Positions 49,308 through 63,333 of a stretch of DNA of 64,000 nt are shown one piece after another. How positions within the stretch are numbered: position 1 is the stretch's first letter; each line of letters begins with the position of its first letter. The stretch lies in assembly GCF_024643285.1 (NCBI RefSeq), contig NZ_JAMSLW010000002.1:248001-312000 (forward strand), written 5' to 3'. The notes beneath the pieces were generated by a model. It had not been told where the DNA came from. It was given only the letters and a program-made list of their open reading frames with translations, and made no database searches. Made by a program: the position numbers and the translations under genes. Source of the stretch: Parapedobacter lycopersici. GTDB lineage: Bacteria; Bacteroidota; Bacteroidia; Sphingobacteriales; Sphingobacteriaceae.

Positions 49308-50627
49308 CTAAAACACAAGCGTAAACACACTGCCTTCCCCTTCTTTGCTGTCGACGAGTATATTGCCACTGTGCAATAGCATGATCTGTTTGCTCAGCGT
49401 GAGGCCGATGCCGCTTCCGTTTTTCCGGGTGGTAAAGAAAGGGATAAAGATGTTCTCCAACAGATCAGGGGGAATACCTTTGCCATTGTCCTGCACCTTG
49501 ATATAAGCCCGTTCGTTCTTCCGTGACGCACTGAGACTGATATACGGAAATTTCGTCGTGCTCACGGCTTCAATGGCATTGATCAGCAGGTTGATCAGCA
49601 CCTGTTCGATCAGGTCGACATCCAGGTCAAGTTCCAGCTTGGTATCTTTGAGAATAATATCAAGTTCGATGTTTTTCTGCATCAGCGTCGGTTCCATCAG
49701 CTGGTAAAGATTTTCGAACACATCGGCAATCTGCACCCGGCTGGTATTCAGTCGGTCGATCCGGTTGAGCGACCGGTAAGTACCGGCGAACTTAAGCAAC
49801 CCTTCGCTCCTTCCCCGGATGGTCTGCACGCCGACACGGATATCTTCGAGCTCCTCACTCTGCGGCATCTGCTGCAGCCTGTTTTTCAGGGTATCGGCCA
49901 GCGACGATATCGGTGCAATGGAATTCATGATCTCGTGGGTAAGCACACTCAACAGCTTCTGCCAGGCTTTTGACTCGGTCTCATCAATGGTTTCGTTGAC
50001 GTTCTGATAGGTGATCAGCCGGTAGCTGCCTTCGGCGGTCTGAAAATCCCGCGCATAGAGCAGCACCTTTAGGTTTCCGCCCGCCGCCGGCAGCGTTTGC
50101 AGCAAAGCGTTTCCGATGACCAGATCAACGGTCTGCCGGTAAAGTTCTGGATTCCGCTTTTCCAGCGCCGAAAAATCGTGGAGGTGGGGAATGGCAAAAA
50201 GGTCACGGAAGGCTTTATTCATCCAGATGACCTTGCCGGAATTTTTATCGTATGACAGGATGGCCGTACCCACAATATCCAGGATCTGTTGCAGGTATTG
50301 GTATTGGATTTCCCTGTCGCTGCTTATTTTCCGCAGTATGGCGTTTACATTGTTGAACGCCTCGTACATCGGCCTCAATTCCGCAGACATGCCCTGGGTG
50401 CGGAATACGCGGGTAAAGTCCCGGTATTTTGCGGCTTCGGCAAATTCATCAAGTTCCCGGTAAATACGCCATTGCGCACGAAAATTGATCACAAACAGCC
50501 AAATACATACAAGCGCTACCAGAAGTGCCAGCCAGTAGTTGGCCTGCACAAGCAAATAAAGGAGTACGCCCAGTGCGATGAATAACGCCAGGCCCCGCCA
50601 CAGCATCAAGCGCCTGATTGCCTTCAT
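49308..50627 (-). CDS. sensor histidine kinase, NtrY-like
   Basis: 439-residue membrane kinase with two N-terminal membrane segments (about 8-28 and 30-48) and almost no periplasmic loop, so the signal is probably sensed in the membrane or cytosol. A PAS-like domain follows (about 105-215). The phosphoacceptor is His231 in SVLTHEIMNSIAPI. The ATPase domain has NLLINAIEAV (N box), VQDNGKGIP (G1) and GSGIGLTLS (G2). Its gene starts 2 bases after the response regulator, so they form one two-component operon. The adjacent efflux genes are the likely target. Confidence 0.92.
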   Translation of the reverse strand: MKAIRRLMLWRGLALFIALGVLLYLLVQANYWLALLVALVCIWLFVINFRAQWRIYRELDEFAEAAKYRDFTRVFRTQGMSAELRPMYEAFNNVNAILRKISSDREIQYQYLQQILDIVGTAILSYDKNSGKVIWMNKAFRDLFAIPHLHDFSALEKRNPELYRQTVDLVIGNALLQTLPAAGGNLKVLLYARDFQTAEGSYRLITYQNVNETIDETESKAWQKLLSVLTHEIMNSIAPISSLADTLKNRLQQMPQSEELEDIRVGVQTIRGRSEGLLKFAGTYRSLNRIDRLNTSRVQIADVFENLYQLMEPTLMQKNIELDIILKDTKLELDLDVDLIEQVLINLLINAIEAVSTTKFPYISLSASRKNERAYIKVQDNGKGIPPDLLENIFIPFFTTRKNGSGIGLTLSKQIMLLHSGNILVDSKEGEGSVFTLVF

Positions 50628-50629
50628 GA

Positions 50630-51982
50630 TCAGATATCGTATTTGTTGAGCCGCCTGTACAGCGCTGCGCGGGTGATTCCCAGCTCCCTTGCCGCCTTGG
50701 TGATATTACCATTATGCTTATCGACCACATTCCGTATGGTTGCGCGTTCAAGTTCACCTAAATTATGCGCTGCCTCGGCGACTTCAGCTGGTGCGCTGCC
50801 GGGTTTGTTTTCTATCGGAGAAAAGATAATGTCGGCCGGTGTAAGCAATTCCTGCTCGGCCATGATGACTGCGCGTTCCATGCTGTACTGAAGCTCCCGT
50901 ACATTGCCTGGATAGTGATAGGTCAACAATTTCTGGCAGGCTGCTTCACCCAGTTTTACTTCGGGTTTCAGGTATTTGGCTGCATATTTTTTCAGGAAAT
51001 GATTCGCAATCAGAACGATATCCTCCCCGCGTGCCCGAAGAGGCGGCACCTGGAGCTCCACCGTATTAATCCGGTAGATGAGGTCGCGCCTGAACCGGCT
51101 TTCATCGGCCAGTGTCTCCAGTGGCACGTTCGTGGCGCAGAGCAGCCGGATATCCACCGGCACCGGGCTGTTGCTTCCCAGCGGCACCACCTGCCGGTTT
51201 TGGAGGGCGGTCAGCAGCTTAGCCTGCTGGCGCAGGGGAATGTTGCCGATTTCATCGAGGAACAGCGTTCCTGCGTTGGCCGCCTCAAACCGGCCTTCCC
51301 GGTCGTCACGGGCATCGGTGAATGCCCCCTTTTTATGCCCGAACAATTCACTTTCGAACAGCGTGTCGGTAAGCGAGCCCACATCTACCTTGACATAGGG
51401 TTTCTCCGCCCGCATGGATTGGGTATGTATTGCGGCCGCGATCAGGTCCTTGCCGGTGCCGTTTTCGCCAAGGATCAGGATATTGGCATCGGTGGGTGCT
51501 ATTTTTTTTATTTTGTAGAACAGTTCCTGCATGATGGCCGATTCCCCGATCAGTTCCATCGGCGGGGCCACCGAAACCGGTTTGGCGGATTTGCCCTTCT
51601 TCTGGTTCGCGAGCGTTTCTTCGATGATGGCCATCAGCTGCTCGTTCTGCCAGGGTTTTACCACGAAGTCCACCGCACCCTGTTTGAGCGACCGTACGGC
51701 CAGGTCAATAGCGCCGTAGGCCGTAATCAGGATCACGGGAAGCTGCGGCTTTAATGCATTGACCCGGTTGAGCCAGTACAGCCCTTCGTTCCCTGTGTTA
51801 ATGGCGCTTTTGAAATTCATATCCAGCAGCATCAGGTCTACGTCGTTCCGGCTTAACAGTGTAGGGATATTTTCGGGATTGTACTCGGTGATGACTTTCT
51901 TTACCCGGTTTTTCAGCAGTAAGGTTACTGCGGTGAGTAAATCCCGGTCGTCATCTACTACTAAAATGGTTGCATTTTTCAC
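50630..51982 (-). CDS. sigma-54-dependent response regulator (NtrC family)
   Basis: 450-residue enhancer-binding activator. The receiver domain (1-120) has phosphoacceptor Asp54 in LMLLDMNF and acidic residues at 10-12. The AAA+ domain (about 143-380) has Walker A GENGTGKD (172-179), the sigma-54 contact loop GAFTDA (219-224, usually GAFTGA) and Walker B LFLDEIGN (240-247). The C-terminal Fis-type helix-turn-helix (about 405-450) ends in NITKAARELGITRAALYRRL. It is transcribed toward its kinase, away from tolC. The half-site cluster at 53579-53620 is a natural candidate for its binding site. rpoN is not in the window. Confidence 0.94.
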   Translation of the reverse strand: MKNATILVVDDDRDLLTAVTLLLKNRVKKVITEYNPENIPTLLSRNDVDLMLLDMNFKSAINTGNEGLYWLNRVNALKPQLPVILITAYGAIDLAVRSLKQGAVDFVVKPWQNEQLMAIIEETLANQKKGKSAKPVSVAPPMELIGESAIMQELFYKIKKIAPTDANILILGENGTGKDLIAAAIHTQSMRAEKPYVKVDVGSLTDTLFESELFGHKKGAFTDARDDREGRFEAANAGTLFLDEIGNIPLRQQAKLLTALQNRQVVPLGSNSPVPVDIRLLCATNVPLETLADESRFRRDLIYRINTVELQVPPLRARGEDIVLIANHFLKKYAAKYLKPEVKLGEAACQKLLTYHYPGNVRELQYSMERAVIMAEQELLTPADIIFSPIENKPGSAPAEVAEAAHNLGELERATIRNVVDKHNGNITKAARELGITRAALYRRLNKYDI

Positions 51983-52163: not shown

Positions 52164-53498
52164 CTAAAACTGCAGGTTCCCACTGTAATAATCGATCATC
52201 AGCTGCCGCATGATCCATTCGTATTTCGAGATGAGGAGCCTGGCGTTGGTCGTATCCATTTTATTCTTGGCGATCAGAAAGGGAACTGAATCAATATCGC
52301 CCGCCTCAAACCTAATTTCCGCAATCCGGTATGAAGCGCTGAAACTGGCGGATTCCTCGACGAGGTTATTGTAGCTGTCCTTGGCCAGTGCCAGGTCGAA
52401 GATCGCCCGGTCTGTCTGCTGCCGCAGCGCATTTCGCTGGTTTTCCTCCAGGTATTCGGCATTGGACACCGCCAGCTTGGCACGTGCCACATTATTCCGG
52501 GTGGTTAACCCGTTGAGCAGCGGGATGGATAGGGTGAACTGCAAATACCGGCCCAGGTTATTCTGCATCTGACGGCCATAAGACAGGTTCTCATTGCCCG
52601 AATAATTGCTTTCGAAGCCGGCACCGACCTTCAGGGATGGAAAATAAACAGAACGGGCTACTTTCAGTGCAACACTGGCCTCTTTTGCCCGTAATGCAGC
52701 GGCCCGAATGGCAGGCAGCGTATTTACCGCATAATCGTAAAGCTGTACATTGTCAGCGGGCTGCGGGTCGGCCAGCAGCTCCTCGCCCAACGGACGGATT
52801 TCAACCGCACTTCCCGGCGGCAGATTCAGCAGGTTGGCCAGCGCCACGCGGCTATTGTTGCAGCTGATGAGCAAATCATTAACAGCAGTCTGGTCGGCCA
52901 TATATTGTCCCTTGAGGTCGTAATAATCACCCGGATTGATGGCTCCTTTTTCATGCTGTATGGTTGCCTGATTCAGCTTTTGCTCGGTTACCGCCGCATT
53001 CAGCTCGGCCTGTTTCAGCATATCCTGCGCAGTAAGCAGCTGCACATATGCAAGCATGACATCCAGTTTTACCTGGTCCTGGACATTGTTGTTTTCCATT
53101 TCTGTTGCCTGCAGGGCGATGGCCTGCTGGCGGATGTTGCGGAGTGTACCCAGTCCGTCAAACAGTGTCAATGAACTGCTGATATTCTGGTTGCCTGCGG
53201 TAAACCGCCGCTCGATATACTGGTTGGTGGTCGGGTCGATCCGCCGGCCCTGGCTGAGCGAATGGCCCAGCGTGGCGTTCAGGCTGGGCAGCTGGTTCTG
53301 CCAGGCTTGCCGCCGGTCAATTTCCGCCTGCTCAATCAGCAGCCGGCTCTGCTGGGCGTTGATGTTCTGCTGGAGTGCAAGCGCGATGCATTGTTCCAGG
53401 CTTAAGGTATCCACATCGGCGACCTGGCTTCTGGCTGCGGAAAAAACCAGGCATAAGCAACTGATCAGGGTAAAACTATATAAATGATAACGTTTCAT
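52164..53498 (-). CDS. TolC family outer membrane efflux protein
   Basis: 444 residues with a signal peptide (about 1-25). Two repeats of long coiled-coil helices and short barrel strands follow, as in TolC. The family patterns LSLEQCIALALQQNINAQQSRLLIEQAEID at the N-terminus and the matching second half starting near SVALKVARSVYFPSLKVGAGF are visible. It forms the outer-membrane duct of a tripartite exporter. The adaptor and ABC components are encoded on the opposite strand across a 320-base regulatory gap, so the tripartite set is divided into two divergent units. The two-component genes lie downstream on the same strand, 181 bases away. Confidence 0.92.
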   Translation of the reverse strand: MKRYHLYSFTLISCLCLVFSAARSQVADVDTLSLEQCIALALQQNINAQQSRLLIEQAEIDRRQAWQNQLPSLNATLGHSLSQGRRIDPTTNQYIERRFTAGNQNISSSLTLFDGLGTLRNIRQQAIALQATEMENNNVQDQVKLDVMLAYVQLLTAQDMLKQAELNAAVTEQKLNQATIQHEKGAINPGDYYDLKGQYMADQTAVNDLLISCNNSRVALANLLNLPPGSAVEIRPLGEELLADPQPADNVQLYDYAVNTLPAIRAAALRAKEASVALKVARSVYFPSLKVGAGFESNYSGNENLSYGRQMQNNLGRYLQFTLSIPLLNGLTTRNNVARAKLAVSNAEYLEENQRNALRQQTDRAIFDLALAKDSYNNLVEESASFSASYRIAEIRFEAGDIDSVPFLIAKNKMDTTNARLLISKYEWIMRQLMIDYYSGNLQF

Positions 53499-53524
53499 TG
53501 TTTATTTACTTTGCTCCTATCCTT

Positions 53525-53539
53525 CCATAGCCTGTGCCA
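53525..53539 (-). promoter_or_regulatory. possible sigma-54 promoter for tolC
   Basis: On the minus strand TGGCAC (53534-53539) is followed at canonical spacing by ATGG instead of TTGC. The -24 box is perfect, the -12 box weak. Transcription would start about 15 bases before the tolC ATG. Confidence 0.4.
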
Positions 53540-53578
53540 AACTAACAGGAAGCTGAAAAACAACACCTTATCGTATAT

Positions 53579-53620
53579 GGTGTTCGCCTGAGGTGTTCGC
53601 AAACGGACACCCGCTGTCCG
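53579..53620. promoter_or_regulatory. candidate enhancer (upstream activating site) with four half-sites
   Basis: GGTGTTCG at 53579 and 53592 (13 bases apart, each followed by C), its inverted form CGGACACC at 53604, and GCTGTCCG at 53613. The second and third copies form a near-perfect palindrome around CAAA. Fis-type activators such as the neighbouring regulator bind such dyads. The cluster lies 40 bases from the tolC -24 box and 65 bases from the hlyD -24 box. Confidence 0.6.
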
Positions 53621-53684
53621 CTTTCGGATAGCTTTCATTTTTCAGCACCCGTGTTAATTATTGAAAATCAATGCATTAATTTTA

Positions 53685-53699
53685 TGGCACAACATTGCA
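53685..53699 (+). promoter_or_regulatory. possible sigma-54 promoter for hlyD operon
   Basis: TGGCAC (53685-53690) and TTGCA (53695-53699), both perfect, but separated by 4 instead of 5 bases. The predicted start is about 109 bases before hlyD. The short spacer weakens the case. Confidence 0.45.
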
Positions 53700-53793
53700 T
53701 AGCTAATTGGCACGGATGAACAGGTGATGGCTGGCAAGGCAACCACCTGGCCGACGAGAAGGAAACAACAATAGAAAAGGACCGGAAGCACAG

Positions 53794-53814
53794 GACTGCC
53801 GGCTGATAGCTAAA
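53794..53814 (+). repeat. short 7-bp array before hlyD
   Basis: Three consecutive heptads, among them GGCTGAT and AGCTAAA, end 4 bases before the hlyD ATG at 53819. Confidence 0.5.
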
Positions 53815-53818
53815 CAAA

Positions 53819-55069
53819 ATGGACAGAACATTACCAAAGAAAAAATGGAACAGTAAACGGATTACCCTGGTTGCCGGTGTATTGGGTATCCTCGCATTAA
53901 TATCCGCCAGTTATTATTTCACTTCCGGCAATTCGCAGCTCAACGTGGATGCCGAGCGCATTACCATATCCGAAGTAAAAGAAGATGCCTTCCGGGAATT
54001 CATACCCATTAATGGTACGGTATTACCGATTACGAGTATTTTCCTCGATGCTTCCGTAGGTGGCCGTGTGGAGGAAAAATTTGTGGAAGACGGGGCACAC
54101 CTCAAAAAGGGAGATCCGATTATGCGGCTTTCCAATACCGACCTGGAGCTGAGCCTGGTAAGCCAGGAGACCCAGGTATACAATAACCTTACCCAGATGC
54201 AGATCGCGCAGACCAGCGCCCAACAGGCCTCTATTGCCACCCGCAACCAGATGGCCGATGTGGAAAATGCCCTGAAGGAGGCCGAACGGGTATATAACCT
54301 GAATAAGTATCTTTACGAGAAAAAGGCGATCGGTTCGCAGGAATACCAGAAAGCCGTGAATGAATTCAATTACCAGAAAGAGCGGCTTACGCTGACCCGC
54401 GAAAACGTGTTGCAGGATTCCATCCGCAGCAAGCAGTCGCTGGAACAGAGCAAGCAGGTGTACGGGAGTACGATGTCGGCACTGGAGCTGATGCGCCAGA
54501 AGGTGGGCGACCTCATCCTCCGTGCGCCCGTGGATGGACAGTTGACCTCCTTCGATGCTGAAATCGGCCAGAACAAAACACCCGGCGAACGCTTAGGGCA
54601 AATTGACGTGCTTACCGGATTCAAAGTGCGCGCCGACATCGACGAGCATTACATTTCACGGATCTATCCCGACCTTGAAGGCGAGTTTACCTTTGCCGGC
54701 AAGAGCTATCGGTTGGTCATCAAAAAGGTATATACCCAGGTAACCAATGGCCGTTTCCAGGTGGACATGGAATTCGTAAACGAGGTCCCTGATGGCATCC
54801 GCCGTGGGCAGACACTGCAGATCCGCCTGGCGCTGAGCGATGAAACAAAAGCCGTGCTGCTGGCCAAGGGCGGATTTTATCAGCAAACCGGCGGCAACTG
54901 GGTGTTTAAAGTTTCGGAAGACGGAAATACGGCGTATCGGGTAGACGTGCAACTTGGCCGGCAAAATCCCGACTATTATGAGGTGATCAGCGGGTTGCAG
55001 CCCGGGGATAAAGTGGTAACATCCAGTTATGAAACGTATGACCGCGTGCAGGAATTGAATATTAAGTAA
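53819..55069 (+). CDS. HlyD/RND family periplasmic adaptor subunit
   Basis: 416-residue membrane fusion protein. One N-terminal membrane anchor (about 15-33) is followed by a barrel-sandwich (lipoyl) half at about 68-110 (GGRVEEKFVEDGAHLKKGDPI), a long coiled-coil hairpin (about 110-240) that meets TolC, the second lipoyl half (VGDLILRAPVDGQLTSF) and beta-barrel and membrane-proximal domains. The type resembles MacA adaptors for ABC exporters. The permease gene starts 7 bases later. It is the first gene of a plus-strand operon. Confidence 0.92.
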   Translation: MDRTLPKKKWNSKRITLVAGVLGILALISASYYFTSGNSQLNVDAERITISEVKEDAFREFIPINGTVLPITSIFLDASVGGRVEEKFVEDGAHLKKGDPIMRLSNTDLELSLVSQETQVYNNLTQMQIAQTSAQQASIATRNQMADVENALKEAERVYNLNKYLYEKKAIGSQEYQKAVNEFNYQKERLTLTRENVLQDSIRSKQSLEQSKQVYGSTMSALELMRQKVGDLILRAPVDGQLTSFDAEIGQNKTPGERLGQIDVLTGFKVRADIDEHYISRIYPDLEGEFTFAGKSYRLVIKKVYTQVTNGRFQVDMEFVNEVPDGIRRGQTLQIRLALSDETKAVLLAKGGFYQQTGGNWVFKVSEDGNTAYRVDVQLGRQNPDYYEVISGLQPGDKVVTSSYETYDRVQELNIK

Positions 55070-55076
55070 CAACGAG

Positions 55077-57455
55077 ATGATCAGAAATTACCTTAAGATC
55101 GCATTCCGGAACCTGGTTAAGAACAAGGTCTATTCCACCATTAATATTACCGGACTTGCCATCAGCCTGGCGGCGACGATCCTGATTTTGCTTTGGGTAT
55201 GGGACGAGCTGGGTTACGACCGGATGCACAGTAAGGCTGATCGCATTTATCAGTTGTCCAGTACTTTTGATATCACTTCGGATAATTTATGGCCGGTTGG
55301 GCCTCCGCCGCTGGCCGAATTTGGTAAAGCGGAGATACCAGGCATTGAAACTGCAACCCGTCTTTGGAAAAGCCGGGCGGTCATCACTACCATCAACGAC
55401 AACCATAAGTTTACCGAAAAAGGTCAGCATGTTGACCCGGCTTTCTTCGAGATTTTCGATTTTCCGCTGTTAGCCGGAGACCGGCAGCATCTTTTTCCTG
55501 ACAATCAATCCATTATACTAACAAAAGCATTGGCCAAAAAATACTTCGGCAACAATGAAGCGCTCGGGCAGACGGTGCTTGTAAACATGGACCCCCTTGT
55601 TGCAGCCGGGGAACGGAATTTCACAGTGACAGGCGTTATTGATGATTTCCCGCTGAATTCATCCATACAAACGGATTTTCTGCTGCCCTTTGATCTGCTC
55701 GATGAAATTCCGGGTACGGAAGGGATCTCCGAACAATGGGGCAACTTTGGCTTCCCAACTTATTTCCTATTAAAGGCAGGCACAGACCCACAAAAAGCAG
55801 CGAAACAGCTGGTCGACATTCACCGCAAAAACAATGAAAGTGAATTTTTCAACAGGTTAGTCTATTTTTTGCAGCCGCTTGAAAAAGTGCATTTATTTGA
55901 CGCCAAAGGAACGGAACGGGGTATGCAACAGGTACGCATTTTTGTGCTTGTCGCCGGTATTATTTTATTGATTGCCTGCGTGAATTACGTCAATCTCATT
56001 ACCGCACGTACCGCCCGGCGGGGAAAAGAGGTAGGTGTAAGAAAGGTCGTAGGAGCAAATCGCACCCACCTCTTTTACCAGTTTATTACCGAATCGGTTC
56101 TGGTATTTCTCATCGCAACGGTGCTTGCCATTGCATTGACATATGTGGGGATGCCCCTTTATAATAACCTGTCTGGCAAGGAGATGGAATTTAGCCTCCT
56201 GGATACGCGCATCTGGTTGCTGTTCGGCAGCACCCTGTTAGCGGTTGTGATACTGGCCGGCATCTATCCAGCGTTGCTGCTAACCACATTTAACCCCATA
56301 CCTGCATTAAAGGGAATGATGGCCGGCATTGGAAAAAACAGCGGTTTGCGTAAGACGTTGGTTGTATTCCAATTCAGTTGTTCCATTATCCTTATCATTT
56401 CCACCATTATGATCAGCAGGCAATTGGATTACATCCGCCAAAAGGAATTGGGCTATGACAAAGCGAACGTATTCTTGTTTCCACAGCTCAATTTTTTAAG
56501 TCGGTTTGAAGCGATCCGGACGGAACTGGAACGCCAACCGGGCATTAGAGGTGTTACTGCGGCCAGCGGCGACATCAGTAACATGGATACGGGCACAGGC
56601 GACATCGAATGGGAAGGGAAACCAGCAACTATGGCGAATTACATGGTGAGCTACATGGCAATTGACCATAAATTCATGGATGTTCTTGACGTACAGCTGA
56701 CTGAGGGCCGGGGGCTCACCGGTACCCCGGCCGATTCTGGCTATATGCTGCTCAACGAAACGGCGGTCAAGCAAATGGGACTGAAAAATCCCATCGGCAT
56801 GTCTATTGTTTTCCGCGACCGGCCCCGCACAGTCATCGGTGTAATAAAGGATTTCCACTTTAACGACTTAAAACAGGCTATCGGACCCTGTGTTTTGTTT
56901 TCGGATTCACGTTACGCGCTCGGAGGTATGTATGTCAAAACTTCGGGGACAGATGCATCATTAGCTTTGGATGCCGTAAAGAAACTATGGAAGCAGTATA
57001 ACAGTGCATTCGAGTTAGATTACCATTTCATGGATGAATCGTTTGATAATTTTTATAAAAGCGATATTCAGGTGGGAAAACTGTTTAACATATTCGCCGG
57101 CATCGCCATTTTAATCTCCTGTCTCGGCCTATTCGGACTGGTGACATTTACGGCGGAAACCAAGGTGAAGGAAATCGGCATACGCAAAACACTCGGCGCC
57201 AGCGTGACCAATGTGGTGCTGTTGATATCGCGTGACTTTCTCCTGCTAGTTGGTCTGTCACTGTTAGTCGCTTTTCCAGTTGGCTGGTGGATGATGAACA
57301 GCTGGTTAGCCAATTATGTATACCACACCGGTATCGAATGGTGGGTATTCGTTGTTGCAGGAACGGCCGCCTTCGCCATTGCAGCTATCACGGTATGCGG
57401 AAAGTCCGTAAAAGCGGCGCAGGAAAACCCAATAAAAGCGTTAAGAACAGAATAA
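55077..57455 (+). CDS. MacB/FtsX family ABC permease 1
   Basis: 792-residue permease without an ATPase domain. It starts MIRNYLKIAFRNLVKNKVYS and has a first membrane helix (about 20-42), a large MacB-type periplasmic domain (about 45-275), three helices (about 283-305, 335-360, 380-405), then another helix and periplasmic domain (about 425-660) and a final FtsX bundle (about 670-775). Two FtsX units in one chain mean it could make a complete transmembrane unit alone. It ends KAAQENPIKALRTE. MacB-type permeases move substrate from periplasm to the TolC duct by mechanotransmission. It is followed by the ATPase gene after 71 bases. Confidence 0.9.
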   Translation: MIRNYLKIAFRNLVKNKVYSTINITGLAISLAATILILLWVWDELGYDRMHSKADRIYQLSSTFDITSDNLWPVGPPPLAEFGKAEIPGIETATRLWKSRAVITTINDNHKFTEKGQHVDPAFFEIFDFPLLAGDRQHLFPDNQSIILTKALAKKYFGNNEALGQTVLVNMDPLVAAGERNFTVTGVIDDFPLNSSIQTDFLLPFDLLDEIPGTEGISEQWGNFGFPTYFLLKAGTDPQKAAKQLVDIHRKNNESEFFNRLVYFLQPLEKVHLFDAKGTERGMQQVRIFVLVAGIILLIACVNYVNLITARTARRGKEVGVRKVVGANRTHLFYQFITESVLVFLIATVLAIALTYVGMPLYNNLSGKEMEFSLLDTRIWLLFGSTLLAVVILAGIYPALLLTTFNPIPALKGMMAGIGKNSGLRKTLVVFQFSCSIILIISTIMISRQLDYIRQKELGYDKANVFLFPQLNFLSRFEAIRTELERQPGIRGVTAASGDISNMDTGTGDIEWEGKPATMANYMVSYMAIDHKFMDVLDVQLTEGRGLTGTPADSGYMLLNETAVKQMGLKNPIGMSIVFRDRPRTVIGVIKDFHFNDLKQAIGPCVLFSDSRYALGGMYVKTSGTDASLALDAVKKLWKQYNSAFELDYHFMDESFDNFYKSDIQVGKLFNIFAGIAILISCLGLFGLVTFTAETKVKEIGIRKTLGASVTNVVLLISRDFLLLVGLSLLVAFPVGWWMMNSWLANYVYHTGIEWWVFVVAGTAAFAIAAITVCGKSVKAAQENPIKALRTE

Positions 57456-57500
57456 GTTAACTATAAACACATGTGCCCGCGCGCTCAGTTTAACTGATGC

Positions 57501-57520
57501 AGCTAAGGCCAATTGCTGAT
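57501..57520 (+). repeat. short 7-bp array before the ABC ATPase gene
   Basis: AGCTAA, then the heptads GGCCAAT and TGCTGAT, end 6 bases before the ATG at 57527. This is the least regular of the arrays. Confidence 0.4.
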
Positions 57521-57526
57521 AACAAC

Positions 57527-58201
57527 ATGATCAAAATCTCCAATCTCCAAAAATTCTACCGCACCGAGGAAGTGGAAACGGTAGCGCTCAACGACCTGAG
57601 CATCCACGTCAAAGAAGGTGAATTCGTTGCCGTCATGGGACCATCGGGCTGCGGAAAGTCGACACTGCTGAATATTGTTGGTCTGCTGGACGACCTGGAT
57701 GAGGGAAGCTACCTGTTTAACAATATTGAGGTGGCCAAATTCAACGAACGCAAACGTTCTGATCTGCGCAAGCACAATATCGGTTTCGTGTTCCAAAGCT
57801 TCAACCTGATTGATGAGCTGACGGTATTTGAAAACGTGGAACTGCCGCTGATTTATACAAAAGTACCTGCGGCTGAACGTAAAAGACGGGTGGAGGAGGT
57901 GCTGGAAAAAGTGCAGATCATGCACCGGCGCAATCACTTTCCGCAGCAGCTCTCCGGCGGACAGCAACAGCGGGTGGCCGTCGCCCGTGCCGTGGTAAAC
58001 CATCCCAAGCTGATCCTGGCGGATGAGCCCACGGGTAACCTTGATTCGAACAACGGTAACGAGGTAATGCAGCTGCTGACGGAGCTCAACGAAGCGGGAA
58101 CCACCATTGTAATGGTAACGCACAGCGAGCACGATGCCCGCTTTGCCGACCGGGTAATCCGCATGCTGGATGGCCAGGTGCTGATGGAGACGGTGGGGTA
58201 G
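57527..58201 (+). CDS. ABC transporter ATP-binding protein, MacB/LolD type
   Basis: 224 residues from the ATG at 57527 (MIKISNLQKFYRTEEVETVALND), the usual LolD/MacB ATPase length; an in-frame ATG at 57497 would add ten atypical residues. It shows Walker A GPSGCGKST, Q-loop VFQSFNL, signature LSGGQQQR, Walker B LILADEPTGNLDS and the switch His in VTHSEHD. This is the only ATPase in the window for at least four MacB-like permeases, so it is probably shared by them. An inverted-repeat element lies immediately downstream. Confidence 0.94.
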   Translation: MIKISNLQKFYRTEEVETVALNDLSIHVKEGEFVAVMGPSGCGKSTLLNIVGLLDDLDEGSYLFNNIEVAKFNERKRSDLRKHNIGFVFQSFNLIDELTVFENVELPLIYTKVPAAERKRRVEEVLEKVQIMHRRNHFPQQLSGGQQQRVAVARAVVNHPKLILADEPTGNLDSNNGNEVMQLLTELNEAGTTIVMVTHSEHDARFADRVIRMLDGQVLMETVG

Positions 58202-58375: not shown

Positions 58376-60808
58376 ATGATGAAAAATACGCTCAAAATCA
58401 CGCTACGAAACCTGAACAAGAGCAGGCTGTTCACTGCACTCAATGGTATTGGGTTAGCGGTGGGACTGGCCGGATTCATGCTCATTGCCGCCTATGTAAT
58501 CGATGAGCTGAGCTTTGACCGTTTTCATGAAAATGCCGAACGGATTGTACGTGTTGATGCCCATATTGGCATCGGCGAAAGCAGCCTGGACATGGCACAG
58601 ACCAGTGACATGATGGGCGGGGTATTAAAGAATGACTATCCCGAAGTGGAGGAATATGCGCGTATCTATGCCGCAACAGGATCGAAATTAATCAAAAAAC
58701 AGACGCATTGGATTAATGAACCCAGTGTAGCGCATGCAGATTCCACCTTCTTCCGGGTGTTCACGTTCCAGGGGATAACCGGCGACATCCAAACGGCACT
58801 GGCCGGCCCCAACAAGGTGGTGCTTTCCGCTTCAGCCGCCAAAAGGTATTTTAACACCACGGATGCGGTTGGCAAAACGCTGGAAACAAATGACAACGGG
58901 AATACCGTGTATGAGGTGACCGCAGTCATCGAAGATATGCCCCGGAATTCGCATTTCCGGTATGACATGCTGTTTTCCATGGACAATGCCCATTATGGCG
59001 ACTGGGGCGAATTTTTATCCCATAATTTTAACACTTACCTCCTGCTGCGGCCGGGAACGGATACGGAAGCACTGGAAGCGCGGTTGGAACAATACGTTCA
59101 AAAATACTGTTTGCCCGCGGCGAAGGGTATCATGGATATTTCCAGCATGGAGGAGTTCCGTCGGCAGGGTAATCGGTTCTATTACGCGCTTACACCGCTT
59201 ACTGACATTCACCTGCATTCAAACCTGACTGGTGAACTGGGGCCGAATGGCAATATCCAGTATGTGTATATTTTCGGGGCGATATCCCTGTTCATCCTGC
59301 TGATTGCCTGTGTGAACTTCATGAACCTCTCGCTGGCCCGGTCAGCTAACCGCGCCAAAGGTGTGAGTGTTCGCAAAGTGCTCGGCTCCTCAAAAGGAGC
59401 ATTGATTGGGCAATTCCTAGCCGAGTCTGTCTTCCTGTCGGTATGCGCAACTGTACTGGCACTGCTGCTCGTTTTTGCCATTCTGCCCCTGTTCAATACG
59501 ATTTCGGGCAAGTCCCTCATTTTTGCCGACATCATAAATTGGCGCACGCTTCCGCTGGTTCTACTGCTGTCGCTGGGCACCGGCGTGGTTGCCGGCTACT
59601 ACCCGGCGTTGTTTCTTTCGGCAGCCAAACCGGTAAAAGTGCTGAAATCGCAGACTGTTATTGCATCAGCAAAAAGCCCCATGCGCAATGCACTGGTGGT
59701 GTTTCAATTTACCGCTTCCATTGTCCTTATCATCGGCACGTTGGTCGTTGCCCGTCAACTGCAATATATCCAAAGCAAACAGCTGGGTTACGAGCGTGAA
59801 AACATGATCCTCGTTAACGATTACTATGCGCTGGGCAACCAAACGAAAACATTCCGGGACGAGGTGCTGCAACTATCGGGCGTAAAAATGGGTACGATCA
59901 GCGGATTCCTGCCGGTGTCGTCCTCAAACCGCAGTGACAATACATATTCCCGCGGGGCGGTGATGTCGGGCACCAATTCGGTATCCATGCAGAGCTGGCG
60001 GGTAGACGATCAGTACCTGCCTACATTTGGCCTGGAGCTGAAAGCGGGGCGGAATTTTGACCACACCCGGCCTGCGGATTCAACGGCGGTGATCCTGAAC
60101 GAAATTGCAGTCAGGAACCTGGGCTACACCGGTGATCCCGTTGGCGAAAAACTTTATTTCACCTTGAATGGCGAGCCGGTGGCATACGACATTATCGGCG
60201 TGGTAAAAGATTTCAATTTTGAATCGTTGCGCGATCCCGTAACACCGCTGGGCTTTTTCCTGAAGGATCACCCGATACAGGCTGCATTTAAGGTACAGCA
60301 GGCCAATATACCGGCGTTGATCAGCCAGATGGAACAGCTGTGGGATAACATGGCTCCCGGATATCCATTTTCCTACCGGTTTATGGATGACGCATTCGAC
60401 GCCATGTACCGCAGCGAGCAGCGGACAGGGCTATTAAGTTTGTGTTTTTCTACCATAGCCATCCTGATTGCCTGTCTGGGCCTGTTCGGCCTCGCCGCCT
60501 TCACCGCGGAGCAACGCACAAAGGAAATCGGTGTCCGCAAGGTACTGGGTGCTTCGGTATCCGGCATCGTGCAGTTGCTGTCCAAAGATTTTATAAGACT
60601 TGTGCTGTTTGCCTTGGTCATCGCCTCACCCATTGCCTGGTGGGCGATGAACCATTGGTTGCAGGATTTTGCCTACCACATCGACATCCAGTGGTGGATG
60701 TTTGCGGTGGCTGGCCTGGCGGCCGTGGTGATTGCTTTACTGACGGTGAGTTTTCAGGCTGTAAAAGCGGCGGTGGCCAATCCGGTCGAATCTTTACGTG
60801 ATGAGTGA
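58376..60808 (+). CDS. MacB/FtsX family ABC permease 2
   Basis: 810-residue two-unit FtsX permease, starting MMKNTLKITLRNLNKSRLF with a first helix at about 20-42. It has the periplasmic MacB core domain, central helices (about 295-320, 345-375, 390-415), a second core domain, and the final bundle. FGLAAFTAEQRTKEIGVRKVLGASV before the last helices is a typical FtsX signature, and the tail is KAAVANPVESLRDE. It has clearly diverged from permease 1, so it is not a recent duplicate. It comes after the ATPase and shares that partner, by inference. The second codon is also ATG, so the start could be 58379. Confidence 0.9.
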   Translation: MMKNTLKITLRNLNKSRLFTALNGIGLAVGLAGFMLIAAYVIDELSFDRFHENAERIVRVDAHIGIGESSLDMAQTSDMMGGVLKNDYPEVEEYARIYAATGSKLIKKQTHWINEPSVAHADSTFFRVFTFQGITGDIQTALAGPNKVVLSASAAKRYFNTTDAVGKTLETNDNGNTVYEVTAVIEDMPRNSHFRYDMLFSMDNAHYGDWGEFLSHNFNTYLLLRPGTDTEALEARLEQYVQKYCLPAAKGIMDISSMEEFRRQGNRFYYALTPLTDIHLHSNLTGELGPNGNIQYVYIFGAISLFILLIACVNFMNLSLARSANRAKGVSVRKVLGSSKGALIGQFLAESVFLSVCATVLALLLVFAILPLFNTISGKSLIFADIINWRTLPLVLLLSLGTGVVAGYYPALFLSAAKPVKVLKSQTVIASAKSPMRNALVVFQFTASIVLIIGTLVVARQLQYIQSKQLGYERENMILVNDYYALGNQTKTFRDEVLQLSGVKMGTISGFLPVSSSNRSDNTYSRGAVMSGTNSVSMQSWRVDDQYLPTFGLELKAGRNFDHTRPADSTAVILNEIAVRNLGYTGDPVGEKLYFTLNGEPVAYDIIGVVKDFNFESLRDPVTPLGFFLKDHPIQAAFKVQQANIPALISQMEQLWDNMAPGYPFSYRFMDDAFDAMYRSEQRTGLLSLCFSTIAILIACLGLFGLAAFTAEQRTKEIGVRKVLGASVSGIVQLLSKDFIRLVLFALVIASPIAWWAMNHWLQDFAYHIDIQWWMFAVAGLAAVVIALLTVSFQAVKAAVANPVESLRDE

Positions 60809-60856: not shown

Positions 60857-60929
60857 TTGAATAAGCAGAAATGAAGTAGCATCAGGGTAATGGAGTAAAA
60901 ATAGCTGTAATGGCATGGTGGGTTACTAC

Positions 60930-60957
60930 CATCGGCCACCAACCACTGAAAACGAAA
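60930..60957 (+). repeat. 7-bp array before permease 3
   Basis: Four heptads including CACCAAC and CACTGAA, ending 3 bases before the ATG at 60961. Thirteen bases are identical to the array of the radical SAM gene at 25 kb. Confidence 0.55.
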
Positions 60958-60960
60958 AAA

Positions 60961-63333
60961 ATGATAAAGAACTATTTCAAAACCGCGTGGCGAAGCATCG
61001 TAAAAAATAAGTTTTATACGATGATTAACGTGATCGGGCTATCGTTAAGCATAGCTACGTCATTGGTTATCTTCTGTATCATCCGTTTTGAGACAAGCTT
61101 TGATCATTATCACCATGCATCCGACCGCCTGTATAAAGTGATGTCGCACGATGTCTTCGGTGAATTAAATTCCCATATTCCCCAAGGATTGATGAAGGCC
61201 CTTCGTCAGCAGTTTCCAGAAATAGAAAAGGCAGCTACGGTGTATCGTTTTGATCCCTCGGTTATCCATGCGGGTGAACAAAACTTCAAAGCGGAGAACT
61301 CCTATTTTGTACACCCGGAGTTTTTTGATATGATCGATGTGGAATGGGTAAAAGGTTCTCCGGATGTTTCGCTTACCCAGCCTTACCAGGTTGTATTGGA
61401 TGAGCCTACCGCGCTCCGTCTCTTTAATGGTGACGCTATGGGTAAAACCATCCGATATGACAATAAATTTGACGTAACTGTATCAGGTATTATTAAAGCA
61501 GTTCCACCGAACTCAGACTTTCAGCTGAGGTTCATTTTTTCGCATGAAACACTGGCAAAATATATGCCTGAAATGGCCAATGCGGATTATTGGGATGGTG
61601 GGGATTCCTGGCATCAGGGTTACGTCTTACTTAAGCCTGGCGTAAATCCGACTGATATTGAATCGGGTATTAATAAACTAATTCAATCTTATCTGGCCGA
61701 CAACAAAACACATTACAAAAGCTTTACCTTATTACCTTTCTCTGCAATCCATTTTGATACCATCACCGATATTTTCAATTATGCAACCCCGGGATGGCTG
61801 TTATATGTTTTAGGAGGTGCGGCAGTTTTACTATTGCTCATTGCCTGTATTAATTATATCAATATTGCCATGGCACAGGCTATGTTGCGTGACAAGGAAA
61901 CAGGTATACGAAAAGTACTGGGCGGAACCCGATGGCAGATTATCGCCTCTTTTATGGTTGAAACAGCGGTGATTGTGTCCATATCCTTAATCGTCGGCGT
62001 TTTCCTGGCTAACGCAATGCTTCCTTACTCGGGCCAGTTATTAAATACACAGGTATCATTGGCCGACTATTGGGATATCGGTGCTATACTTTTTATAGGC
62101 TGCACCTCGCTTTCGCTTTGTGTGGTAGCGGGTGGATATCCCGGATGGATGCTGGCACATTTCTCACCTGCAAAACTCCTCCGTACCACGCTGTTTGTCC
62201 CTCGCGCAGGAGGATTTGCCCTGCGGAAAGTATTGCTGGTGTCTCAATTTATCATCGCACAGTTGTTGATAATCTGTACAATCATAGGCATCCGACAGGT
62301 AAACTACCTTTATGATAAAGAATTGGGATTTGATAAAACGGGCATTATAGCCGTCAATATGCCCAACGCTGAACATATTTTCAGGGAACGATTACGGAAT
62401 AACCTCTTGCAACATCCAGCAATTAAAGAAGTAACATTCGGTTTAACTACGCCATCAAGTATTCATAACTGGTGGTGGGGACAGGTTAAATACCCAGGCC
62501 TGATTCACGGTGAGGAGCAGTTTCGCCAGCAATTCGTCGATACGAATTATTTTAATTTTTTTAATATCGCTTTAATTGCGGGACGTAATTTTAATCAGGC
62601 TGACACCACAAGAGCCGTCGCGATGATAAATGAAAAAGCCGCACACGAAATGGGGCATTTAAACGCGTCGGCAGCTATCGGAAACCGCATAGAAATGTGG
62701 GGCGACACGTATGAGGTTACCGGGGTTGTCGATAACTACATTTCCCAAAGCCTAAAAGAAGACATTACACCACATATTTATTTTTACAATGGCCGCTTCT
62801 TTACAGCCATGATCCGAATAGCTCCGGCAGAGCGCAGTGAGGCAATAGCGGCTATCCGCGAGGAATGGAAGCCGATTTTTCCAAACAACTTTTTTGAATA
62901 CCGCTTCCTGGATGATGAGTTAAAAACCTTTTACAGCGGGGAAAACAAGTTTGCTGGCATGCTCTCCTTATTCACGGTAATAAGTGTGATAACCAGCTGT
63001 TTGGGGATATTCGGGTTGGTTTCGTTTATCTGCCGACGCAAAACGAAGGAAATTGGGATCCGTAAAGTGCTTGGCGCGTCAGTAGTTCATATCGTGCGGA
63101 TGCTGGCATCCGATTTTATGAAACTTATTGCTGTAGCTATTCTTATTGCCTCCCCTATTGCGTGGTGGGCTATGAATAAGTGGCTAACTGAATATACTTA
63201 CCGCGTGAATATAGCATGGTGGATTTTCGCTATTGCGGGATTGATAGCAGTTGTTGTTGTGACAATTACTGTAAGCTTCCAAACTATCCGGGCGGCCGTG
63301 GCCAACCCCGTGGACTCGTTGAGGGATGAATGA
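60961..63333 (+). CDS. MacB/FtsX family ABC permease 3
   Basis: 790 residues from the ATG at 60961 (MIKNYFKTAWRSIVKNKFYTM); an in-frame ATG at 60910 would add 17 residues including part of the repeat array. Layout as in the previous permeases: one helix (about 21-40), MacB core, three helices, second core, final FtsX bundle with FGLVSFICRRKTKEIGIRKVLGASV, and the tail RAAVANPVDSLRDE. The C-terminal tail matches permease 2 more closely than permease 1, but the periplasmic domains are quite different, which suggests different substrates. The gene looks more AT-rich than permease 2. Confidence 0.9.
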   Translation: MIKNYFKTAWRSIVKNKFYTMINVIGLSLSIATSLVIFCIIRFETSFDHYHHASDRLYKVMSHDVFGELNSHIPQGLMKALRQQFPEIEKAATVYRFDPSVIHAGEQNFKAENSYFVHPEFFDMIDVEWVKGSPDVSLTQPYQVVLDEPTALRLFNGDAMGKTIRYDNKFDVTVSGIIKAVPPNSDFQLRFIFSHETLAKYMPEMANADYWDGGDSWHQGYVLLKPGVNPTDIESGINKLIQSYLADNKTHYKSFTLLPFSAIHFDTITDIFNYATPGWLLYVLGGAAVLLLLIACINYINIAMAQAMLRDKETGIRKVLGGTRWQIIASFMVETAVIVSISLIVGVFLANAMLPYSGQLLNTQVSLADYWDIGAILFIGCTSLSLCVVAGGYPGWMLAHFSPAKLLRTTLFVPRAGGFALRKVLLVSQFIIAQLLIICTIIGIRQVNYLYDKELGFDKTGIIAVNMPNAEHIFRERLRNNLLQHPAIKEVTFGLTTPSSIHNWWWGQVKYPGLIHGEEQFRQQFVDTNYFNFFNIALIAGRNFNQADTTRAVAMINEKAAHEMGHLNASAAIGNRIEMWGDTYEVTGVVDNYISQSLKEDITPHIYFYNGRFFTAMIRIAPAERSEAIAAIREEWKPIFPNNFFEYRFLDDELKTFYSGENKFAGMLSLFTVISVITSCLGIFGLVSFICRRKTKEIGIRKVLGASVVHIVRMLASDFMKLIAVAILIASPIAWWAMNKWLTEYTYRVNIAWWIFAIAGLIAVVVVTITVSFQTIRAAVANPVDSLRDE

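Follow-up and report, generated by a model that had tools for sequence, protein, structure and literature searches.

A putative divergent sigma-54-type control region with one tandem-palindrome enhancer between the tolC and hlyD genes of a Parapedobacter lycopersici exporter locus

The 320-bp gap that separates the diverging tolC (minus strand) and hlyD (plus strand) genes of a Parapedobacter lycopersici exporter locus very probably constitutes a divergent pair of sigma-54-type promoters with one common enhancer and bend sites, for which the adjacent NtrC-type regulator is the likely binder. The tandem pair of palindromes in this gap is not a chance occurrence. Comparison with other genomes supports the view that the region is one member of a recurrent module, whose elements are conserved at a fixed spacing 5' of exporter genes; the source genome also carries rpoN and one HU/IHF-family gene. 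The window, by which we mean the whole stretch of 64,000 nucleotides that was analysed, corresponds to positions 248001-312000 of contig C12 in a 3.6-Mb draft genome of 22 contigs.

Layout of the tolC-hlyD intergenic region

The tolC-type outer membrane channel gene (52164-53498, minus strand) and the hlyD-type adaptor gene (53819-55069, plus strand) are the predicted targets. Located 3' of tolC on the same strand are the gene of an NtrC-type response regulator with receiver, sigma-54 AAA+ and Fis helix-turn-helix domains (50630-51982), the likely enhancer binder, and then that of a histidine kinase (49308-50627), its likely partner. The hlyD gene is followed, all on the plus strand, by a MacB/FtsX-type permease gene (55077-57455) that is probably co-transcribed with it, an ABC ATPase gene (57497-58201) and two further permease genes of the same type (58376-60808 and 60910-63333). 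With adaptor, ABC ATPase, MacB-type permeases and TolC-type channel, this set is reminiscent of the MacAB-TolC, DarBCD and ADOP exporters, and its NCBIfam matches include DarC, DarD and ADOP, all below the curated cut-offs. Unlike in those systems, ATPase and permease are separate proteins here, and many permeases accompany a single adaptor. The permease cluster extends past the end of the window, with ten further FtsX-type genes in C12:312001-350000 (L091, L092), five of them directly 3' of a tandem palindrome pair.

The enhancer consists of two palindromes of 8-4-8 form, neither of which has a strand: GGTGTTCG-CAAA-CGGACACC at 53592-53611 and GCTGTCCG-CTTT-CGGATAGC at 53613-53632, with a pitch of 21 bp, or two helical turns, from the first to the second. 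The half-sites lie at 53592 (GGTGTTCG), 53604-53611 (CGGACACC), 53613-53620 (GCTGTCCG) and 53625-53632 (CGGATAGC), and an extra plus-strand copy of GGTGTTCG occupies 53579-53586. The earlier note had counted four half-sites as a single enhancer. Its half-sites, like both of its TGGCAC boxes, are present exactly where it placed them; the grouping did not hold, since the units are two palindromes, CGGATAGC had been overlooked, and the copy at 53579 is not conserved, having no visible counterpart at that position in the tolC promoters of nine relatives. That copy is probably outside the switch, and the reading of four half-sites as a single enhancer was rejected. What stands is a pair of palindromes 5' of a sigma-54-type promoter, the arrangement looked for in an NtrC-type enhancer.

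On either side of the pair, a TGGCAC -24 box points outward: on the plus strand at 53685-53690 toward hlyD, and on the minus strand at 53534-53539 toward tolC. The distance from the start of each box to the closer 16-bp palindrome core is 55 bp (core 2 for hlyD, core 1 for tolC), and the control region is therefore mirror-symmetric about 53612. The -12-like boxes are imperfect in different ways. The one of tolC (ATGGA, 53524-53528, minus strand) has the canonical GG-N9-TG spacing and lacks the C, whereas that of hlyD (TTGCA, 53695-53699, plus strand) has TTGC in a GG-N8-TG arrangement, one base below canonical. These weak points, to which the earlier note had already drawn attention, are real; a -12 box with TG but often no C, and the short hlyD spacer, both recur in other promoters and species. 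A second TGGCAC (TTGGCACG) is seen at 53708-53713, 23 bp 3' of the first on the hlyD side, with no apparent -12 partner.

Taken singly, the elements are unremarkable. An initial dyad pattern whose spacer was 7 bases long matched nowhere in the genome, and a loose dyad with up to 2 mismatches gave 27+27 genome-wide matches versus 21+18 for the reversed-pattern control, the window site being the sole match with zero mismatches in the whole genome. Within the window, loose single dyads (10 vs 8.3 expected) and loose -24/-12 matches (31 vs 35.8 expected) occurred at chance level, and single-motif scans were dropped as proof. The tandem pair behaves differently: with up to 4 mismatches allowed in the two dyads together it occurs once in the window, as against an average of 0.075 in shuffles of the window that approximately preserve its dinucleotides, and at no more than 1 mismatch it was found 0 times in 40 shuffles. 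The weight of the argument rests on the 55/55-bp symmetry and on conservation in relatives.

Recurrence and fixed geometry of the module

A tandem pair is present 5' of tolC in nine relatives, seven of the same genus (G002-G008) and two of other genera in the same family (G022 and G023), with a pitch of 21 or 22 bp. The TolC proteins of these nine are 40-49% identical to that of the window. Loss of the half-sites in close relatives, which the earlier note had named as evidence against its reading, is not what was found, as the half-sites are kept as a pair. Nor is the window site the only one in its genome. The earlier note had proposed a look for further dyads near MacB-type permeases; six more pairs stand 5' of permease units, five of them in the 36 kb past the window and one on contig C17.

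A distance rule was derived from 25 promoter directions, of which 21 have a -24-like TGG at a distance of 53-55 bp, one has it at 64 bp and three lack it. A sequence-only model of the pair, built from 15 sites, was then run on 25 genomes, and 60 sites among the matches listed, none of them used to build the model, served as a test set. Exporter genes (FtsX, ATPase or HlyD) are directly 3' of 56 of these 60 sites (55 typed by script and L177 by hand; L153, L165, L190 and L191 have no typed gene and stand outside the 56). On the gene side, TGG lies at 53-55 bp in 54 of the 56, L157 and L192 being the misses, versus 5 occurrences on the opposite side; many of the test sites are orthologues in sister species and hence not independent events. 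The layout as such therefore appears to be real, with close copies 5' of many related Bacteroidota exporter genes, and it looks like a precisely measured switch. The conservation of the pair, the fixed distance to TGG and the mirror symmetry also lend support to the proposal, made in the earlier note, that one enhancer would serve both halves of the exporter.

Some pairs precede genes of other kinds. One at C12:26360 (L094:6361-6397) lies 5' of an acyltransferase-like gene (PF03417, below cut-off) and has no TGG at the expected distance in the direction measured; it is a relic or a chance match. Two related-looking proteins of 197-198 residues (L153:1728-2324 and L165:1713-2306), which lack a Pfam match and whose N-terminus resembles a signal sequence, are encoded 3' of tandem pairs with TTTTTTGG/TTTTTGG promoters and are possible extra members of the regulon.

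The IHF-like element and the hlyD promoters of distant Bacteroidota

An element that the earlier note did not mention lies between enhancer and -24 box on each side of the window enhancer. The published core of the IHF site is WATCARN4TTR (PMC8899819). When the 54 test-set promoters with TGG at 53-55 bp were aligned at GG, this core starts exactly at -20, with a mean of 7.59 of 9 matches; at least 8 of 9 positions agree there in 34 of the 54 promoters, whereas none of the other offsets scanned reaches this in more than 3. The mirror image of the core is directly 5', so that the whole reads YAAN4YTGA-N3-TCARN4TTR centred at -20, where a palindrome score with 11-bp arms also peaks. At least 5 of 7 positions match in both halves in 44 of the 54 promoters. 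In the window, the symmetric site on the hlyD side (53654-53678, plus strand) matches 6+7 of 7+7 positions and 9 of 9 of the core, and that on the tolC side (53546-53570, minus strand) 6+6 of 7+7 and 7 of 9. The tolC promoters of all nine relatives reach at least 5+5 (9/9), and five of the six further permease sites in the source genome score at least 11 of 14; the element is lacking at the permease site C17:222k (1+3 of 7+7, or 4/14).

The source genome encodes one PF00216 protein that we could find (C18:190399-190668), and the HU-HIG model matches the same gene. Its scores are higher with the IHF models (65.7 bits) than with the HU models (47.2 bits), yet it falls below the curated cut-offs of all IHF (alpha, beta) and HU models; the best matches among solved structures are single-chain IHF and then HU. 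An IHF alpha/beta heterodimer was not found in the source genome. Because the only family member detected lies below the IHF cut-offs, we call the element IHF-like, in the sense that its function may be that of an IHF site. Poor alignment is noted for many HU/IHF proteins of Bacteroidetes (PMC5683647), and further family members may therefore have been missed. A sole member would act as a homodimer, for which a symmetric site would be expected, and we infer that this protein bends the DNA at the IHF-like site.

It is less probable, although a serious alternative, that the element is the site of some other dimeric protein or a shape signal for the polymerase. Published IHF sites are asymmetric, with a 34-bp consensus (PMC8899819), whereas the element here is palindromic; binding by HU proteins is usually not sequence-specific (PMC5683647); and the low scores of the only candidate protein relative to the IHF alpha and beta cut-offs point the same way. 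Against this, the right half of the element is the published IHF core itself, and the interval between enhancer and promoter is the classical place for IHF (PMC8899819, PMC7057263). The candidate protein is closer to the IHF than to the HU models, and its presumed homodimeric form would account for the symmetry. We retain the IHF-like reading as the preferred one.

A scan with the regulator found at least 80 loci, nearly all in records titled Bacteroidota; the genera among the matches listed include Mucilaginibacter, Pedobacter, Sphingobacterium, Flavihumibacter, Pontibacter, Aequorivita, Psychroflexus and Parabacteroides. Among these listed matches, TGGCAY is present in 46 of 51 hlyD upstream regions, and 41 hlyD promoters were chosen for having TGGCAY together with at least 6 of 9 IHF core positions near -20. 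Two features that played no part in this choice are frequent in the chosen promoters from the matches listed: the dyad TGTnY..YGnAC is present in 40 of 41, where 0.69 would be expected, and the tandem pair in 24, where 0.005 would be, these shuffle figures being somewhat flattering because the half-site pattern was framed after the 41 sequences had been viewed. In 23 of the 24, again among the matches listed, the pair begins at -91 to -93. The left half of the IHF-like site reaches at least 5 of 7 in 38 of these 41 listed promoters, and their spacer is N8 in 19 and N9 in 1, with no TG at N7-N10 in 17. As background, 90 of 1106 TGGCAY occurrences in the loci among the matches listed have an IHF core of at least 7, true sites included. 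A sequence-agnostic palindrome profile of the 41 promoters from the matches listed gave only weak peaks, apparently because left and right half-sites differ and the spacing of the arms varies between clades, whereas the half-site pattern stood out clearly. In a weight-matrix scan of 80 loci among the matches listed, the upstream regions of hlyD, tolC and the regulator rose above shuffles, which was not so for the ATPase group or for the majority of permease regions. Beyond the genus of the window and its neighbours, the hlyD promoter is thus the firm case. By eye, the hlyD promoter of a genome from another family (G025, L110:9380-9680) has TATCAATGCATTA before GTGGCAC, which is almost the IHF-like core of the window, and a different palindrome (TGTACCACAGTGGAACA) upstream.

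The candidate regulator, the sigma factor and the proposed switch

The NtrC-type activator that the earlier note had seen in the adjoining operon is indeed there, with receiver, PF00158 (213 bits) and Fis helix-turn-helix domains. Its sigma-54 contact loop reads GAFTDA, not GAFTGA, in 11 of 11 aligned orthologues, a departure that counts against the proposed switch; in three other activators of the source genome the loop is GSFTGA or GSFTSA. The gene of the regulator is found beside hlyD/tolC, or divergent from the nearby pair, in G009, G011, G014, G020 and G023, and in G024 it has the pair close by, beside a different gene.

Site counts per genome, taken as model hits at the E limit given, were set beside the distribution of the regulator. 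Among the genomes whose orthologue is at least 60% identical, G000 and G002-G009 show 20-41 both-strand hits and G010 and G011 have 2 each (E<=1), G023 has 4 and G024 has 3 (E<=0.01), and G021 (65%) has 0 at E<=0.01. Where the orthologue is more distant, 24 hits were obtained in G014 (53%) and 0 at E<=0.01 in G038 (52-55%). Among genomes with no orthologue, G013 has 0 hits, G012 has 1 and G026-G033 have 1 to 5 weak ones (E<=1). Two genomes combine sites with no orthologue found: G001 (7 hits, E<=1) and G022 (32 hits, E<=0.01), the latter keeping the fixed TGG at most of the sites looked at. The absence in G022 is possibly a gap in its 120-contig draft. In G001, a permease gene next to tandem sites is split into three frames that overlap or adjoin one another (L319:10018-13207), as if the system were decaying, and a close TolC orthologue was not found there.

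The pair is most likely bound by the adjacent regulator, although the sites of G001 and G022 and the few or absent hits in G010, G011, G021 and G038 count against it. It is improbable that the module is as described and its enhancer is bound by one or more other NtrC-type activators. Such a binder would explain the sites of G022 and G001, and a further activator at C12:500k in the source genome is another candidate; yet in several genera the sites have the regulator gene next to them, the distant loci were found with the regulator alone as query, G022 is a fragmented draft, and the system of G001 looks as if it were decaying. G013, which has no sites, does have orthologues of two other activator groups (60-62% and 79-81% identity), and these groups are thus poorer candidates. 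We keep the neighbouring regulator as the predicted binder.

The promoters themselves fall into two spacer groups. GG-N9-TG is found in 34 of 38 permease promoters, with a C after the TG in 9 of 38, and also in the tolC promoters of the window and the nine relatives. In the test set, TG stands at N8 in 4 of 6 hlyD promoters and at N9 in 0 of 6, and in ATPase promoters at N8 in 7 of 10 and at N9 in 2 of 10, relative to a background TG frequency of 0.071 (47 rows). The source genome has one copy of rpoN, and the gene is present in 24 of the 25 genomes, the one that lacks it being 76% complete. The -24 box, TGGCAC on both sides of the window, and its distance to the conserved TG fit sigma-54, and transcription of both tolC and hlyD would be expected to depend on it. 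Sigma-54 promoters with mapped starts (motif SM4) have been described in Flavobacterium psychrophilum (PMC9723704), whose genome encodes three PF00158 activators (PMC9723704). A 2025 survey predicted from promoter statistics that FtsX-like permeases (COG0577) of Bacteroidia are under sigma-54 control and calls this the first evidence (PMC12316311); the link as such is therefore not new.

That these are ordinary promoters of the Bacteroidota primary sigma factor (consensus TAnnTTTG, taken from PMC9723704), with TTTGG as the -7 box and the palindromes as a conventional activator or repressor operator, is very improbable: TTTGG is common at the -24 place and two units of the source genome have a TTTATTACTTTGG stretch in common, but the TA that completes TAnnTTTG in 15 of 54 promoters is unenriched (14.7 expected from column composition) and far less constant than the second G and the downstream TG, the TGG keeps its fixed distance from the pair, and the gene next door encodes a regulator of the sigma-54 activator type. 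The TAnnTTTG reading, under which the earlier note would have abandoned its own, was rejected.

Based on these findings, we propose a plausible mechanism for the sigma-54-type switch. First, the sensor kinase would pass a signal to the adjacent NtrC-type response regulator; that a signal acts through this kinase is our inference. The activated regulator would bind the two palindromes as an upstream activating sequence, and the IHF/HU homologue would bend the DNA at the IHF-like site on each side. The bend would bring the activator onto RpoN polymerase waiting at the TGGCAC -24 box, 55 bp from the enhancer, which could then fire both ways, into tolC on one side and into hlyD, the permeases and the ATPase on the other. 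Through the further copies of the module, the same signal may turn on the other permease units of the genome. A broader reading is quite possible, though we advance it tentatively: a hard-wired Bacteroidota module of the form [palindrome-21 bp-palindrome]-54 bp-[-24/-12], whose intervening bend site is symmetric and is recognised by an IHF-like protein acting as a homodimer, would couple many MacB-type permeases to a common adaptor, ATPase and channel, and the conserved spacer classes N9 (permeases, tolC) and N8 (adaptor, ATPase) would make the outputs differ in response to the same signal.

The design is a known one. Like the NtrC/NifA systems of Proteobacteria, which combine enhancer, IHF and sigma-54, the module has paired upstream palindromes, an intervening IHF-type site, a -24/-12 promoter and an adjoining activator gene. 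It differs from them in its nearly rigid 54-bp spacing, its symmetric bend site and a -12 box that is often without C, as well as in a separate short-spacer class (hlyD, ATPase), one enhancer for two promoters, and its occurrence in Bacteroidota. The sigma-54 regulon of F. psychrophilum (SM4, PMC9723704) shares the phylum and the -24/-12 promoters; the targets named in the accessible text are chaperones, proteases, gliding proteins and exported proteins, and no mention of this enhancer, of an IHF-like site or of exporters was seen in it. The survey PMC12316311 ties the same permease type to sigma-54; the terms UAS, IHF, integration host factor and TolC were not found in the available text, which apparently does not give a regulator, enhancer, geometry or bend site. 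In the literature searched, outside which most subscription journals lay, no enhancer, IHF-like element or regulator of these exporters is described. The new points are a geometry that is almost rigid, a symmetric form of the IHF-like site, two classes of spacer, a regulon of exporter genes, and the phylum.

If this reading is true, a poorly understood family of Bacteroidota exporters gains a regulator, a signal path and a promoter grammar that its members share and that can be tested. The data suggest that the enhancer-IHF-sigma-54 design of Proteobacteria is closely matched in a distant phylum, with a geometry so nearly rigid that it would suit the study of phasing among activator, bend and polymerase. 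The symmetric bend site, together with the single HU/IHF-family gene detected, also raises the question of whether one homodimer can do the sequence-specific job of IHF.
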